From the NCBI GenBank assembly GCA_021848145.1, contig JAJZMX010000004.1, forward strand, positions 186,001 to 250,000: a stretch of 64,000 nt of DNA, given 5' to 3'. The translations under genes and the position numbers were made by a program. The stretch is from a bacterium (GTDB taxonomy: Bacteria; Patescibacteriota; Saccharimonadia; Saccharimonadales; UBA4665). A model generated the notes under the pieces. The model saw nothing but the letters and a program-made list of their open reading frames with translations. It was not told where the DNA came from and did not search any database. Shown in pieces: positions 56,035 to 61,449 of this stretch. Each line of letters starts with the position of its first letter. The first letter of the stretch is position 1.

Positions 56035-56592
56035 ATGAGTGTTATAGAAGAAAGATCATTGGGTGTAGAAAACTCTGCGGACGTAAAGCGTCGGTTAGTA
56101 ATTGAATATGTGCAGACTCAACTAACAAATAAGTTTCCTTATTTCCAAGAAAGTACTAATGTTCACTCTGACCAAGGTTTTAATAAATCATTGCTCGTAA
56201 GTGATAAAGCTAAGGTTTCATTGACGGTTCCGCAAGTAGCAGATTACCGTGCGCTAAAGATATTGTCCTTGATTGTTTCTGGTGAAAAAAACGACTTTCC
56301 GGTTGAGAATCCGCTCCATAGACTTACTCACTCGTTATTGAGGTTTCGTTTGGTAGATATGGCCGTAGAGCTTAATGATGTAGATCCTGATGGATATGTT
56401 GCCGAACCTATTGATTGGGAACAACCAAAAAAATATATTGAACACAGATCCCCGGAAAATCCAGAAGATATATTAGCTAGGTCTGTGAAATCTAATGGAG
56501 ATATTTCTACTGGATTCAGCTGTAACTATTCATTTAGCGAAGGTGAAGCGTCCATAAAAGGGCTTTACTACTACTTTACGCCTTCGGCTTGA
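56035..56592 (+). CDS. Hypothetical protein
   Basis: A 185-residue soluble protein, not recognised. It is rich in Val, Ser, Lys and Asp with no membrane helix or Cys cluster (one Cys). A perfect TTGACA (55986-55991) with TAATGT at 17-nt spacing precedes it, leaving a short leader. Its last 22 nt overlap the 3' end of the convergent tmk-thyX gene. Confidence 0.5.
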   Translation: MSVIEERSLGVENSADVKRRLVIEYVQTQLTNKFPYFQESTNVHSDQGFNKSLLVSDKAKVSLTVPQVADYRALKILSLIVSGEKNDFPVENPLHRLTHSLLRFRLVDMAVELNDVDPDGYVAEPIDWEQPKKYIEHRSPENPEDILARSVKSNGDISTGFSCNYSFSEGEASIKGLYYYFTPSA

Positions 56593-58931
56593 ACCCTTTT
56601 GTTATCGGTCTTATCTGTTTTGTCTTTGTTTAAAATAGATAGTTTGTATTGGCTGTACTTCTCAGCTGCTAGCCTAGTTAACTCAGGATCCTCATCTTTA
56701 TTAACAAAGATCATTGCTTGAGCTATTAGCGGATGGACTTCATTTAGAGTTTCGTGCATCTTTTTTACCAGCTTGCGGTAGCCAGGGTGGCCTTGGGGGC
56801 TGGTTCTAAGTTCATGAAGATGAAAAGCTTCGCGGGCGTTATATGTAACTTTCCAACGCATACGATGACCAAGAAGCGTGGCGTATTGCGCTTCATTACG
56901 GTAGCCTAAGTTTTGTAGATCACTATAAAGCTCAAGGGACAGGTCAAAACAATTCTCGAATTGGTCGCTTAAACCGGCATCTTCTACTATTTTTGGCACA
57001 TCATAGCCAAAACGAGGGGATAACTGTTGCCACTCCAAATCATCTACCATCCGGTGGCGTTGCAAATCCCTAAATATGCCATAGTCACAAATAAGATCCC
57101 AACTGTAATGAGCTTTTTCAAGAGCTCTACCCGGGCGGTGTCGGCGGTTTAATCTCTCGCCAAAGTAGGTTTGGAATACTTCGGCTTTCTGTTCGTAACT
57201 CCAGTTCGAGACAATGTCTTTTATTTTATCCAGTGGAAGGTCGGTGTGCTCATATAGCATGTCAGCGACCAAATCCAGTTCATTGCGTGGCCAGAAATCT
57301 ACCAGCGAAACATCGTTATTGTCTGTAGGTATCGGCTCTTTGTTAATAGTTTTGTCGGCTAACATTTGCATGGCTTTAAAGTTATTAGCCCTATACGCCA
57401 CTATAGCTCCACCTCTTTCTGGTTTATCTGCACGCTCTAAAAACATCGGCATAACTTTTCTTGCTTCTTCTAGCACCTTTTCACCGGTTTGGCGTGATTC
57501 TAGTAGCTCATCGCCCAGCAAATGTATTACTAGAGATTCTAATGCTTGGCCTGACGCAAAGATTCCAACTGTTGAAGTAGTGGCCACCGGTAGTAATGGT
57601 CTTATAGCATCACACGCCTGTGCCCGGATTGCTGCGCGAAAGGCACCGTCGTGTTCATTTTTAGGAACCTTGCTGTTAGTTTCGATATAGCTAGTTAACT
57701 TATGGACAAGCTCTGAATAGATATCAAATATTTGATCCATGCTTTTTTTGTAACTTTTTTTAGTTTTGGGATCAAAATTATCGGGAATGAAGTAACGATA
57801 ATTCCCTGCTTCGTCTTTCTTGTCGAAATATATATAACGAGTTGATTGTTCTAAATATGAAGCTAATCTGCCCCATTCTAGTTTTTTGGTTAATAAGTTT
57901 GAGGCTTGTTCGATGACTATATGGATTCCAGCTAATTGCTGTACTGAGTCATCACCGTACGCCGTTATTACTCGCTTAAGAAGATCTTCGTCTTTTCCCT
58001 CGTTGGTAGCGAATTCGTCTAGAAGGGTTATTCTCATGTCATCGCCACGACGACTAAGCCTGGCCATTGCGGCAGCGATGGTGGTGGGGCTCAAGTAGTC
58101 ATAGAAGGCGTAGATGTTACCGTTTGTGTTTGTCACCGCTTTATCTAAGAATTGCTTTCCGATTTCAGTTATGCCAAAGCCTTTTTCCTCCTTTTTGATC
58201 AAGTCTGTTGATGTGTTATTGAGGCTATGACTTATAACAGGAATTGGTGGCTCACTAGAGATTAGTTCTGCTATTGAGTTAGTTGAATTCAGTGGCTTAG
58301 CTGATCGTAACTTAAGATTTTTGGATACATGATTCCATAGTCGTTCTGTAACTTCCTCTTGAGTTCCTGTTGCAAAAATAATAGGGAATCCGCGTTGGTC
58401 GGCCTCCCATAAGTAACCCGCCCTGACCCTCTCCAAGAATGCGGGGTCTAGCTCGTCAAATCTTTCACCTTGGTTACGCTTGGACTGGCGTTCAGTAAGT
58501 ACTTGTACGGGAGCATCGAGAACTAAAGTTAGGTCAGGTTCAACACCATTGACAGCAAATTTTATGATCCTATTAATTGTTTCGTAATCCGGGATATCCC
58601 CGCGCCCATAATATTGGACAGCTAGAGTTGTTAAATAATTACGGTCAACTATGCAGCATATTCCCTGCTCTATACTACGCTTAATTACTTGTAGTGACTG
58701 AGATCTCGCAGCGTTATACAGTAGAGTTTCGGTAATTGTATTCATCGGGTAGCGTGGATCCTGTGTTAGTTGCCTAATTGCCCGAGCAGTTAGGTCGGTT
58801 TGGGAATCTGGTTCGCGCATAGATCGCACTGGAATTCCTGCCAATTGCAATCTTTTTGTCATCTCTGTTACCTGTGTTGTTTTGCCAACTCCCTCAGGTC
58901 CTTCAATGACAATGTATTTACCCCTATTCAT
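56571..58931 (-). CDS. Thymidylate kinase fused to tandem ThyX domains
   Basis: A 786-residue fusion. Residues 1-207 are thymidylate kinase: P-loop EGPEGVGKTTQ, MREPDSQT, DRNYLTTLA and the lid GERFDELDP. Two ThyX (flavin-dependent thymidylate synthase) domains follow. The first (about 253-500) has GRLASYLEQSTRY (354-366), the Ser-x-x-x-Gln-Ser-x-Arg half of the ThyX motif, without its RHR. The second (about 545-775) has RHR at 625-627 but a 3-residue longer, altered second half (QQLSPRF). It would make dTMP from dUMP with FADH2 and methylene-folate and then dTDP. The dcd gene upstream overlaps by 8 nt. Confidence 0.85.
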   Translation of the reverse strand: MNRGKYIVIEGPEGVGKTTQVTEMTKRLQLAGIPVRSMREPDSQTDLTARAIRQLTQDPRYPMNTITETLLYNAARSQSLQVIKRSIEQGICCIVDRNYLTTLAVQYYGRGDIPDYETINRIIKFAVNGVEPDLTLVLDAPVQVLTERQSKRNQGERFDELDPAFLERVRAGYLWEADQRGFPIIFATGTQEEVTERLWNHVSKNLKLRSAKPLNSTNSIAELISSEPPIPVISHSLNNTSTDLIKKEEKGFGITEIGKQFLDKAVTNTNGNIYAFYDYLSPTTIAAAMARLSRRGDDMRITLLDEFATNEGKDEDLLKRVITAYGDDSVQQLAGIHIVIEQASNLLTKKLEWGRLASYLEQSTRYIYFDKKDEAGNYRYFIPDNFDPKTKKSYKKSMDQIFDIYSELVHKLTSYIETNSKVPKNEHDGAFRAAIRAQACDAIRPLLPVATTSTVGIFASGQALESLVIHLLGDELLESRQTGEKVLEEARKVMPMFLERADKPERGGAIVAYRANNFKAMQMLADKTINKEPIPTDNNDVSLVDFWPRNELDLVADMLYEHTDLPLDKIKDIVSNWSYEQKAEVFQTYFGERLNRRHRPGRALEKAHYSWDLICDYGIFRDLQRHRMVDDLEWQQLSPRFGYDVPKIVEDAGLSDQFENCFDLSLELYSDLQNLGYRNEAQYATLLGHRMRWKVTYNAREAFHLHELRTSPQGHPGYRKLVKKMHETLNEVHPLIAQAMIFVNKDEDPELTRLAAEKYSQYKLSILNKDKTDKTDNKRVQAEGVK

Positions 58932-59637
58932 AAGCCATACCCTTTATCGGCTCCGGCATAGTGCGCTGGTCGTTATATGCCTTGGGTAGCATCATGTCTG
59001 GCGACCATGTTTTAATAATCGTATCTAGGTCAGTGCCCTGTTGGTATTTACCACTAAAACCGTTGTCTCTCCCCGCCCCATAATTACCTTCAACTTCACC
59101 TGTTTCGTGAAATACTGCTTGGGCTATGCGCTCACCAACAGGAAGTAAAATTGTTTCTCTGTGGTTGAGATTATATATTTCAAGGGTTAAGCGGTTTATG
59201 TAGCCCGGGTCTACCCATCCAGCATCAAAACATACGGCAATTCCGTTACGACCCCAACTTGAGCGTGATTTTAATTCATATGCTCCAGGCGGTTTAATAC
59301 CGAAAAATTCATGGGTATGGGCCAGTATTCGCTCACCGGGTTTTAGGCTTATTACTGGATGCTCTGGTGGTATATTTGCAAGTGGCAAAAACCCATTCTG
59401 CTTGCTCCATTGTCTGTGGGGCATTGCCTTGTAGGGACCATCAAAGTAACGTTCGATATCTTCTTTGTCGAACGGGTTGTATATTATCCTGTCGTTCATT
59501 CGTTCAATGCGGTAGAAATAGTAACCTAGGGTTACGTCTAGACTTGCATGCGCAATATGTTTTGGGTTGAAAGGCGTGCAAACTATATGTCCCTCTTCAA
59601 GAGCCACTTTTATTTGTGTGTTGCTATAGACTGACAA
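58924..59637 (-). CDS. dcd: dCTP deaminase / dUTPase family
   Basis: A 237-residue trimeric dUTPase-fold protein. YELKSRSSWGRNGI carries the triphosphate-binding RSS motif, DAGWVDPGYINRLTLEIYN the catalytic Glu and core, and GERIAQAVF the later motif. It turns dCTP into dUTP (or dUMP if bifunctional), the precursor for ThyX. Somewhat longer than the 190-residue E. coli form. TTG start codon at 59635-59637, supported by GAGGGAG 7 nt upstream. The overlap with tmk-thyX makes a pyrimidine operon. Confidence 0.88.
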   Translation of the reverse strand: MSVYSNTQIKVALEEGHIVCTPFNPKHIAHASLDVTLGYYFYRIERMNDRIIYNPFDKEDIERYFDGPYKAMPHRQWSKQNGFLPLANIPPEHPVISLKPGERILAHTHEFFGIKPPGAYELKSRSSWGRNGIAVCFDAGWVDPGYINRLTLEIYNLNHRETILLPVGERIAQAVFHETGEVEGNYGAGRDNGFSGKYQQGTDLDTIIKTWSPDMMLPKAYNDQRTMPEPIKGMAYE

Positions 59638-59757: not shown

Positions 59758-61449
59758 ATGTTAAAAAAACTTAGATTAGAATTTCATCATATAGTTGCTT
59801 TAGTTAGCTTCCTGGTCGGATTTTATGGGTTATTTATTATTACCTCGACGTTACTAGACCAATTTTCTATACATAGGCTTCGCTTTGTGAACAGTTTTAC
59901 GATTGACGTGCATATAGTGTTTGGACTGGGGTTTATTTATTTAAGCTTGCTTTTACTGCGCAGAAAGAAGAATGCGCTTTACCTAGCCCTAACTGCGTTC
60001 ACTTTTCTTTTAGTAGACGGTGTAGCAGAAATTGTTATCCATCCTAACTTACATAAATTTAATGCATTGATAGTAGGCAGATATATCGCGTTGCCATTAG
60101 TAATAATGGGGAGTCTTATAGTGACTCATGATGAGTTTAAAGTTAAAAGCGATCAGCAGGCGTTTACGAATTCACTAAGACTAGCGGTGATTGTGTTTAT
60201 TATTACATTTGCATACGGTGTAAGCGGATTTATGCTGATGGCTAAAACTGATTTTCATCAAGAAATTGGCTTTACGTCGGCTCTATATCATACAGCTGAT
60301 CAATTTGATTTATTTTCTAACCACCCCCTAAAACCTTATACTAAACGAGCTCGATTGTTTAATGATTCTTTGTCTTTTGTTAGTCTTGCTGCAATAGGCT
60401 ATCTTATTATTTCACTGTTTCAACCAGTTAGAGCCAGGTTAATAGATCAGAGCGATCAAAGAGATAGGCTCAAGATCATTTTAGATAAATACGGTGCACT
60501 GAGTGAAGATTTTTTTAAGTTGTGGCCAAAAGATAAGCATTATTTTTTCGAGAGTAAGGGCGAGGCTGCAATAGCCTACCAAACTAGACACGGAGTTGCG
60601 CTTGTATTGGGGGATCCGGTAGGTAACAAAAAATCATATGCCAGTTTATTTAGTGAATTTAGCGATATGTGCTGGTCTAATGATTGGCAGCCCGCCCTCA
60701 TACACGTCGATGAACGTTTTATTCAGTTTTATAAGGATTTAGGTTTCCAACTTCAACTAATTGGGCAGGAAGCTTTTGTGAATATTGAGCATTTTGTAGC
60801 TAAGACTTCTAGGAACAAGTATTTTAGAAATATTAAAAACCGGTTTAATAAAGAGAACTTTAGCTTTGAGGTATTAGAACCGCCACACCATCAGGCAGTA
60901 CTTACGCGCATGCAGGCCATATCTGATGATTGGCTTTCTAAGCCCGGTAGAACTGAGCGGGGTTTTGTAATGGGTTACTACAGTGAGGAGTATGTTCAAC
61001 AATGCAATATTGCCGTGGTTCGTGACGCGGCAAAAACCATACAGGCATTTATGAATATTATTCCTTCAGATAGTTTTAATAAGCGTGAGGTAACTTATGA
61101 TATGTTGCGCACGACTAAAGATGCTCCACCGAACATCAATGACTTTTTGCTTTATAGTCTCCTGTATAACCTGAAAGACGAAGGTTACAAAATATTGAGC
61201 CTTGGACTGTCTCCGTTAGTAGGTTTAGACGAGGCCTCAAGTGAAAGTTCGCTTATTTCTAGTGTATTAAGGTTTGCTTATGTTAACGGAGACCGAATTT
61301 ATTCCTTTAGCGGGCTACATAGATTCAAGGAAAAATATGAACCAAAATGGGAGGATCGTTTTATAGGCTACCGGGGTGGAGTAAGAGGCTTTTCTAGAAT
61401 GCTTAACGGATTAGCCTCAGCAATGAAAGTCCGCAATTTAAAGCGCTAA
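59758..61449 (+). CDS. MprF-like phosphatidylglycerol lysyltransferase (DUF2156) with short membrane part
   Basis: A 563-residue protein. About six helices in residues 10-235 replace the usual 14-helix flippase of MprF. The C-terminal 310 residues are the GNAT-fold DUF2156 synthase: VALVLGDPVGNKKS, WQPALIHVDERFIQFYKDLGF, RNKYFRNIKNRFNKENFSFEV, VMGYYSEEYVQQCNIAVV, and FAYVNGDRIYSFSGLHRFKEKYEPKWEDRFIGY. It transfers an amino acid from tRNA to phosphatidylglycerol, lowering surface charge. Convergent with rplA (12-nt overlap). Confidence 0.85.
   Translation: MLKKLRLEFHHIVALVSFLVGFYGLFIITSTLLDQFSIHRLRFVNSFTIDVHIVFGLGFIYLSLLLLRRKKNALYLALTAFTFLLVDGVAEIVIHPNLHKFNALIVGRYIALPLVIMGSLIVTHDEFKVKSDQQAFTNSLRLAVIVFIITFAYGVSGFMLMAKTDFHQEIGFTSALYHTADQFDLFSNHPLKPYTKRARLFNDSLSFVSLAAIGYLIISLFQPVRARLIDQSDQRDRLKIILDKYGALSEDFFKLWPKDKHYFFESKGEAAIAYQTRHGVALVLGDPVGNKKSYASLFSEFSDMCWSNDWQPALIHVDERFIQFYKDLGFQLQLIGQEAFVNIEHFVAKTSRNKYFRNIKNRFNKENFSFEVLEPPHHQAVLTRMQAISDDWLSKPGRTERGFVMGYYSEEYVQQCNIAVVRDAAKTIQAFMNIIPSDSFNKREVTYDMLRTTKDAPPNINDFLLYSLLYNLKDEGYKILSLGLSPLVGLDEASSESSLISSVLRFAYVNGDRIYSFSGLHRFKEKYEPKWEDRFIGYRGGVRGFSRMLNGLASAMKVRNLKR

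Follow-up and report, generated by a model that had tools for sequence, protein, structure and literature searches.

The window, by which we mean the whole 64,000-nucleotide stretch of DNA analysed here, carries a gene for a protein that we consider, with a probability of about 85%, to be an active flavin-dependent thymidylate synthase (ThyX) and a dTMP kinase on one chain, in which the ThyX part was duplicated and its two copies lost complementary halves of the active site. The domain make-up of this protein was computed directly (Table 1), and a Pfam search with all 786 residues bore out the earlier note's description of a thymidylate kinase (Tmk, 1-207) followed by two ThyX-like domains, D1 and D2: Thymidylate_kin matched at residues 9-196 (E 1e-27) and Thy1 matched in two stretches (E 5e-38). 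When D1 and D2 were cut apart, each matched Thy1 alone (E 5.6e-19 and 1.1e-18, respectively), and the curated cut-off of PF02511 (Thy1), 24.8 bits, was passed by both, at 69.1 bits for D1 and 68.1 bits for D2. The score against the NCBIfam equivalog TIGR02170 (thyX) was 58 bits, below the cut-off of 87.9 bits, as is expected for divergent tandem domains. Because phmmer searches with either domain by itself gave no relevant match among PDB sequences, profile and fold comparison were needed. Both domains matched a single-domain ThyX profile in hhalign with a probability of >99.5 (99.7 for D1), and the D2 fold matched that of T. maritima ThyX 1o26_C (Z 14.9, rmsd 2.2 A, 191 residues); the ThyX fold was assigned to D2 by structure comparison and to D1 by profile only.

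Table 1. Positions in the window of the fused gene, its domains and motifs, and the adjoining dcd gene.
Feature	Position	Strand	Remarks
Fused dTMP kinase - ThyX(D1) - ThyX(D2) gene	56571..58931	(-)	786 aa, ATG start
Thymidylate kinase domain, residues 1-207	58311..58931	(-)	Pfam and NCBIfam matches, fold match 2pbr_A
Kinase-ThyX linker, residues 208-245	58197..58310	(-)	Predicted disordered (pLDDT <50 at 210-240)
ThyX domain 1 (D1), residues 246-535, putative dUMP/lid half	57327..58196	(-)	Pfam Thy1, hhalign
D1 motif GRLASYLEQSTRY, residues 354-366	57834..57872	(-)	S363, R365, Y366 invariant, 119 proteins
D1 R444-x-x-L447-P448, equivalent of T. maritima R147-x-x-LP	57588..57602	(-)	Invariant, 119 proteins
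ThyX domain 2 (D2), residues 537-775, putative FAD/RHR half	56607..57323	(-)	Pfam, fold 1o26_C, hhalign
D2 RHR, residues 625-627	57051..57059	(-)	R/H/R in 119, 117, 119 of 119 proteins
D2 altered loop after RHR, residues 628-643, MVDDLEWQQLSPRFGY	57003..57050	(-)	3 residues longer
D2 N698-A-R700 (Tm N163/R165, Mtb R190)	56832..56840	(-)	FAD phosphate residues
D2 R709 (Tm R174, Mtb R199)	56805..56807	(-)	Arg in 118/119 proteins
dcd, dCTP deaminase, TTG start	58924..59637	(-)	Overlaps fused gene start by 8 nt

The kinase domain passed the dTMP kinase equivalog TIGR00041 (NCBIfam; kinase family PF02223) with 106.8 bits against a cut-off of 83.25. It contains the P-loop (GPEGVGKT, 11-18), the REP motif (REPDSQ, 39-44), NAARSQ (73-78), the DR motif (96-97) and the LID arginines (RQSKRN, 148-153), and the P-loop Gly/Lys, REP, N-A-A-R and DR residues were conserved in all 47 kinases of the window's type. 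Its closest folds were thymidylate kinases (2pbr_A, TM 0.86 over the target), which also filled the match list when the whole protein was submitted to Foldseek.

A review of solved structures (PMC6514825) assigns the residues of one Mtb ThyX active site to three subunits, with RHR (95-97) and Arg199 coming from subunit A, Ser71 and Arg190 from subunit B, and Gln103, Ser105, Arg107 and Tyr108 from subunit C, so that the two motif halves serve different sites even in the ordinary enzyme. If a tandem is split along these lines, one of its domains should keep the A set and its partner the C set, and we tested this in 119 aligned tandem proteins. The full complementary division, with the A set in D2 and the C set in D1, was present in 117 of these, a degree of retention that argues against a chance split. 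The equivalents of Ser105, Arg107, Tyr108 and R147 were kept in D1 of every protein, as was the preceding Glu/Gln, and the first Arg of RHR was Arg in 1/119 D1s, with the third Arg kept in 111/119. Conversely, D2 kept the R-x-R of RHR in 119/119, its His in 117/119 and the Arg199 equivalent in 118/119, and had Tyr at the R147 position in 119/119. The B set was itself divided, Arg190 being found with D2 (110/119) and Ser71 with D1 (Ser or Thr in 119/119), and the FAD phosphate residues N-x-R were kept in D2 and were usually S/Q in D1. An independent alignment of 64 proteins showed the same invariant positions.

The canonical RHR-x7-S-x-R-Y was found in neither domain of the window's protein, and is complete only across D1 and D2. 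The D1 half motif that had been reported at 354-366 without an RHR was confirmed: D1 reads E-W-G-R-LASYLEQSTRY, i.e. WGR-x7-S-T-R-Y, with W353-G354-R355 at the RHR position and only the third Arg of the triplet retained. Alignment likewise upheld the reported RHR of D2 (625-627) and its altered second half, which reads RHR-MVDDLEWQQLSPRFGY, i.e. RHR-x10-S-P-R-F, and is three residues longer than the canonical form. This second half, which varies among the tandem proteins, has been altered but not lost, as D2 retains T/S-x-R-Y/F in many Saccharibacteria. In two unfused tandem ThyX proteins (L042 and L043) D2 has RGR in place of RHR, these being the two with Gly at position 626. The division of the A and C sets of solved tetramers between D2 and D1 strongly supports, at the level of sequence, the earlier note's proposal of one composite site per D1-D2 pair; we would guess that the third contributor to this site is the D2-D2' FAD interface.

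Structure prediction with AlphaFold2 gave a pLDDT of 89.1 and a pTM of 0.69 for the full protein. The ThyX pair alone reached a pLDDT of 93.7 and a pTM of 0.88, and on these values D1 and D2 are predicted to form one compact packed unit. In the linker (210-240) pLDDT was about 42, with all residues below 50, and this, together with a pTM that is lower for the full protein (0.69) than for the ThyX pair (0.88), suggests that the kinase is held on a flexible, loose tether.

In the model that we favor, an ancient tandem duplication of ThyX would have been followed by the loss, from each copy, of the active-site half kept by the other. The half that holds FAD (RHR, N-x-R and the counterpart of Arg199/Arg174) would come from D2, and the half that holds dUMP, with the lid (E-x-S-x-R-Y and R-x-x-LP), from D1. 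As each of the four sites of a homotetrameric ThyX takes these two sets from different subunits, the oligomeric state and exact geometry that we infer are those of a dimer of tandem chains, which would make a pseudo-tetramer with two complete and two dead sites. Catalysis would then proceed by methylation of dUMP to dTMP in the composite site and conversion of dTMP to dTDP by the tethered kinase, with two live synthase sites and two kinase sites per dimer fixing a 1:1 ratio.

We evaluated how widely this architecture is spread, and found Thy1 matches in 126 of 380 Patescibacteria genomes. Many of the Thy1 frames in this phylum were single frames of ~430-620 aa, most of them with two Thy1 matches, and frames of 737-796 aa occurred, among the 380 genomes, only in the window's order. 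A scan of genome contigs with Saccharibacteria-like patterns returned 80 loci, 78 of which encode the full-length fusion, the other two being cut by contig ends; where the organism was named, it was nearly always assigned to Saccharibacteria/Saccharimonadia or Patescibacteria, with one Chlamydiae entry that is presumably mislabelled. The contig scan and the phylum search together yielded 81 distinct fused proteins, including the window's, so that the fusion, for which a search in other Patescibacteria had been proposed, was recovered in 80 further distinct Saccharibacteria proteins. We rejected an assembly artefact on the grounds of this recurrence.

Two kinase types occupy the same N-terminal place in the 81 proteins, 47 being of the REPD/REPG type of the window (TIGR00041), 33 PRK07933-like and one odd. 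The second type, about 40% of the fused relatives, had NF005923/PRK07933 as its closest NCBIfam model, with scores below that model's cut-off. Repeated swapping of the kinase domain was considered, as a quick ThyX tree needed 5-6 changes of type, but was rejected: one clade per kinase type could not be refuted (AU test p 0.708), and the tree constrained in this way was even better than the unconstrained tree. We claim only that the kinase types reflect one replacement or two separate fusions. Some loci (L116, L125, L128, L153 and L168) have a second thymidylate-kinase-like gene upstream of dcd, besides the fused kinase.

In other Patescibacteria, the unfused tandems often had a kinase gene as neighbor, sometimes directly upstream or overlapping (L061, L069, L080, L085 and L093), suggesting that the fusion arose from operon adjacency. 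These adjacent unfused tmk genes also bear on the earlier note's proposal that the fused kinase channels dTMP into dTDP. A fusion that evolved to pass dTMP directly between the synthase and kinase sites would be in keeping with the 81 distinct proteins that retain it, in which kinases of two types take the same position. However, a linker predicted to be disordered suggests that the kinase is not rigidly docked, and the adjacent unfused genes make co-expression the simpler reason for the fusion; channelling was thus not supported, and we regard it as unlikely. The benefit of fusion that we infer is co-production and proximity rather than a tunnel. A broader scheme, to which we attach similarly little likelihood and which we offer as speculation, is that a whole branch of ThyX consists of hard-wired half-of-sites enzymes, with two complete composite and two degenerate sites in each pseudo-tetramer, that the degenerate sites are kept as structural or nucleotide-sensing pockets, and that in Saccharibacteria dTMP goes straight to the kinase of the same chain.

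Other arrangements of ThyX were also observed. In the window's order, L186 (1438-2361) and L185 (a 306-aa frame) encode an apparently circularly permuted ThyX, in which positions 60-187 of the Thy1 profile match first and positions 12-57 match downstream in the same open frame; the permuted ThyX lies near dcd and rplA, and L186 falls in phage family phrog_85. Two compact tandem-like ThyX proteins, L187 (400 aa) and L188 (396 aa), again carry S-A-R-Y in their first half, and their second half has RHR.

The gene content of the host genome (950 kb, 97.8% complete) agrees with the model of an active fused enzyme. No Thy1 domain or thymidylate kinase was found in this genome outside the fused gene, nor was any ThyA or DHFR, but SHMT, which provides CH2-THF, is encoded. 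Such a set of genes is usual for a ThyX-reliant organism, and it indicates that the fused protein is probably the genome's only de novo dTMP source. The upstream dcd gene overlaps the fused gene, as the earlier note had it, and the overlap measures 8 nt; in 74 of the 80 fused relatives, too, dcd is found close to the open frame, at a distance of -120 to +60 nt. The dcd product of the window scored marginally above the cut-off of the TIGR02274 equivalog (93.0 vs 92.8 bits). A separate trimeric dUTPase was not found in the genome, where the only dUTPase-family match was dcd itself, below the cut-off; the dcd product may be bifunctional (dCTP -> dUMP). Between dcd and rplA the window encodes, on the (+) strand at 59758-61449, a 563-aa membrane protein with a C-terminal phosphatidylglycerol lysyltransferase domain (PF09924, E 2e-65).

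It could be argued that the duplicated ThyX is a relic, decayed or non-catalytic, or acts as a regulator, and that only the kinase works while the cell draws on imported thymidine or host nucleotides, as cells of Saccharibacteria are reduced and depend on a host, and in several genomes of the window's order there is no Thy1 match at all. We consider this very improbable, because the known catalytic residues are invariant in 119 diverse proteins, the loss of complementary halves in step is not expected from decay, and the presence of SHMT with the absence of DHFR and ThyA is the classic ThyX genotype. About equally improbable is the alternative that each ThyX domain forms its own relaxed site, so that all four sites of the pseudo-tetramer work. 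Its proponents could point to the S/T-x-R-Y/F that D2 keeps, three residues late, in many Saccharibacteria, and to the third Arg of RHR that most D1s keep; but D1 is without the first Arg, usually without the His of RHR and mostly without the FAD-site N-x-R, and D2 lacks the R147 equivalent throughout the 119 proteins and is variable in its second half. Least probable of all is methylation of another pyrimidine nucleotide, as by the ThyX homologue PolB (a UMP/dUMP methylase), whose structures 4p5a/4p5b were among the structural matches of D2, since a dTMP kinase is fused to the protein, dcd adjoins it in almost all Saccharibacteria, and it is the only thymidylate synthase candidate in the genome.

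Tandem ThyX also occurs outside Patescibacteria. Searches with tblastn located it on plasmids of Euzebya, Miltoncostaea, Parabacteroides, Bacillus and Paenibacillus and in phage Tunturi_5 (Tunturiibacter). All eight sequences checked outside Patescibacteria (from Actinomycetota, Bacteroidota, Bacillota and phage) carried S-x-R-Y with R-x-x-LP in their first half, and their second half carried R-H-R (R-H-N in the Bacillus/Paenibacillus forms) and the counterpart of Arg199. L178, L179 and L180, the tandem proteins from Bacillus and Paenibacillus plasmids, have RHN for RHR in D2, the Arg replaced being the third. A search with the predicted structure matched a 491-aa protein of Microcystis phage Ma-LMM01, by fold only, and no kinase-ThyX fusion outside Saccharibacteria was found in the plasmid collection. 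When single domains, D1s and D2s were placed in one tree, D1s grouped with D1s and D2s with D2s, with 4 label changes compared with 45 when labels were shuffled, which is consistent with one old tandem duplication.

To our knowledge, all work on ThyX, an antibiotic target, has dealt with a homotetramer whose four sites are equal. In the open-licence PMC literature we found no description of a split ThyX site, a tandem or duplicated ThyX, a Tmk-ThyX fusion or a ThyX in Saccharibacteria. Databases already contain tandem ThyX proteins, named simply 'FAD-dependent thymidylate synthase' or 'thymidylate synthase', and the many database proteins of tandem length that carry the former name need re-reading. 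A site divided between two non-identical domains would offer a clean system for single-site mutants, site stoichiometry and subunit roles, and a two-step pathway fusion is here seen to be shared across Saccharibacteria, which are poor in tractable enzymes.

Compared with homotetrameric ThyX/FDTS (PF02511; T. maritima TM0449, Mtb ThyX), D2 has the same fold, D1 belongs to the same family, and the catalytic residues are the same when D1 and D2 are taken together, whereas each chain here has two non-identical domains with one half-site each, and two live sites are expected rather than four. The kinase resembles bacterial dTMP kinase (TIGR00041/PF02223) in its P-loop, DR and LID motifs and differs in being fused to ThyX. 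The tandem ThyX proteins of Euzebya, Miltoncostaea, Parabacteroides, Bacillus, phages Tunturi_5 and Ma-LMM01, and phrog_36506 are ~460-570 aa long with no kinase fused and, where checked, show the same D1/D2 division as the window's protein, with RHN rather than RHR in Bacillus/Paenibacillus. Herpesvirus-type monomeric dUTPase, of a fold and reaction unrelated to ThyX, is likewise a duplicated chain with complementary motif loss, in which a composite site replaces the homo-oligomer.
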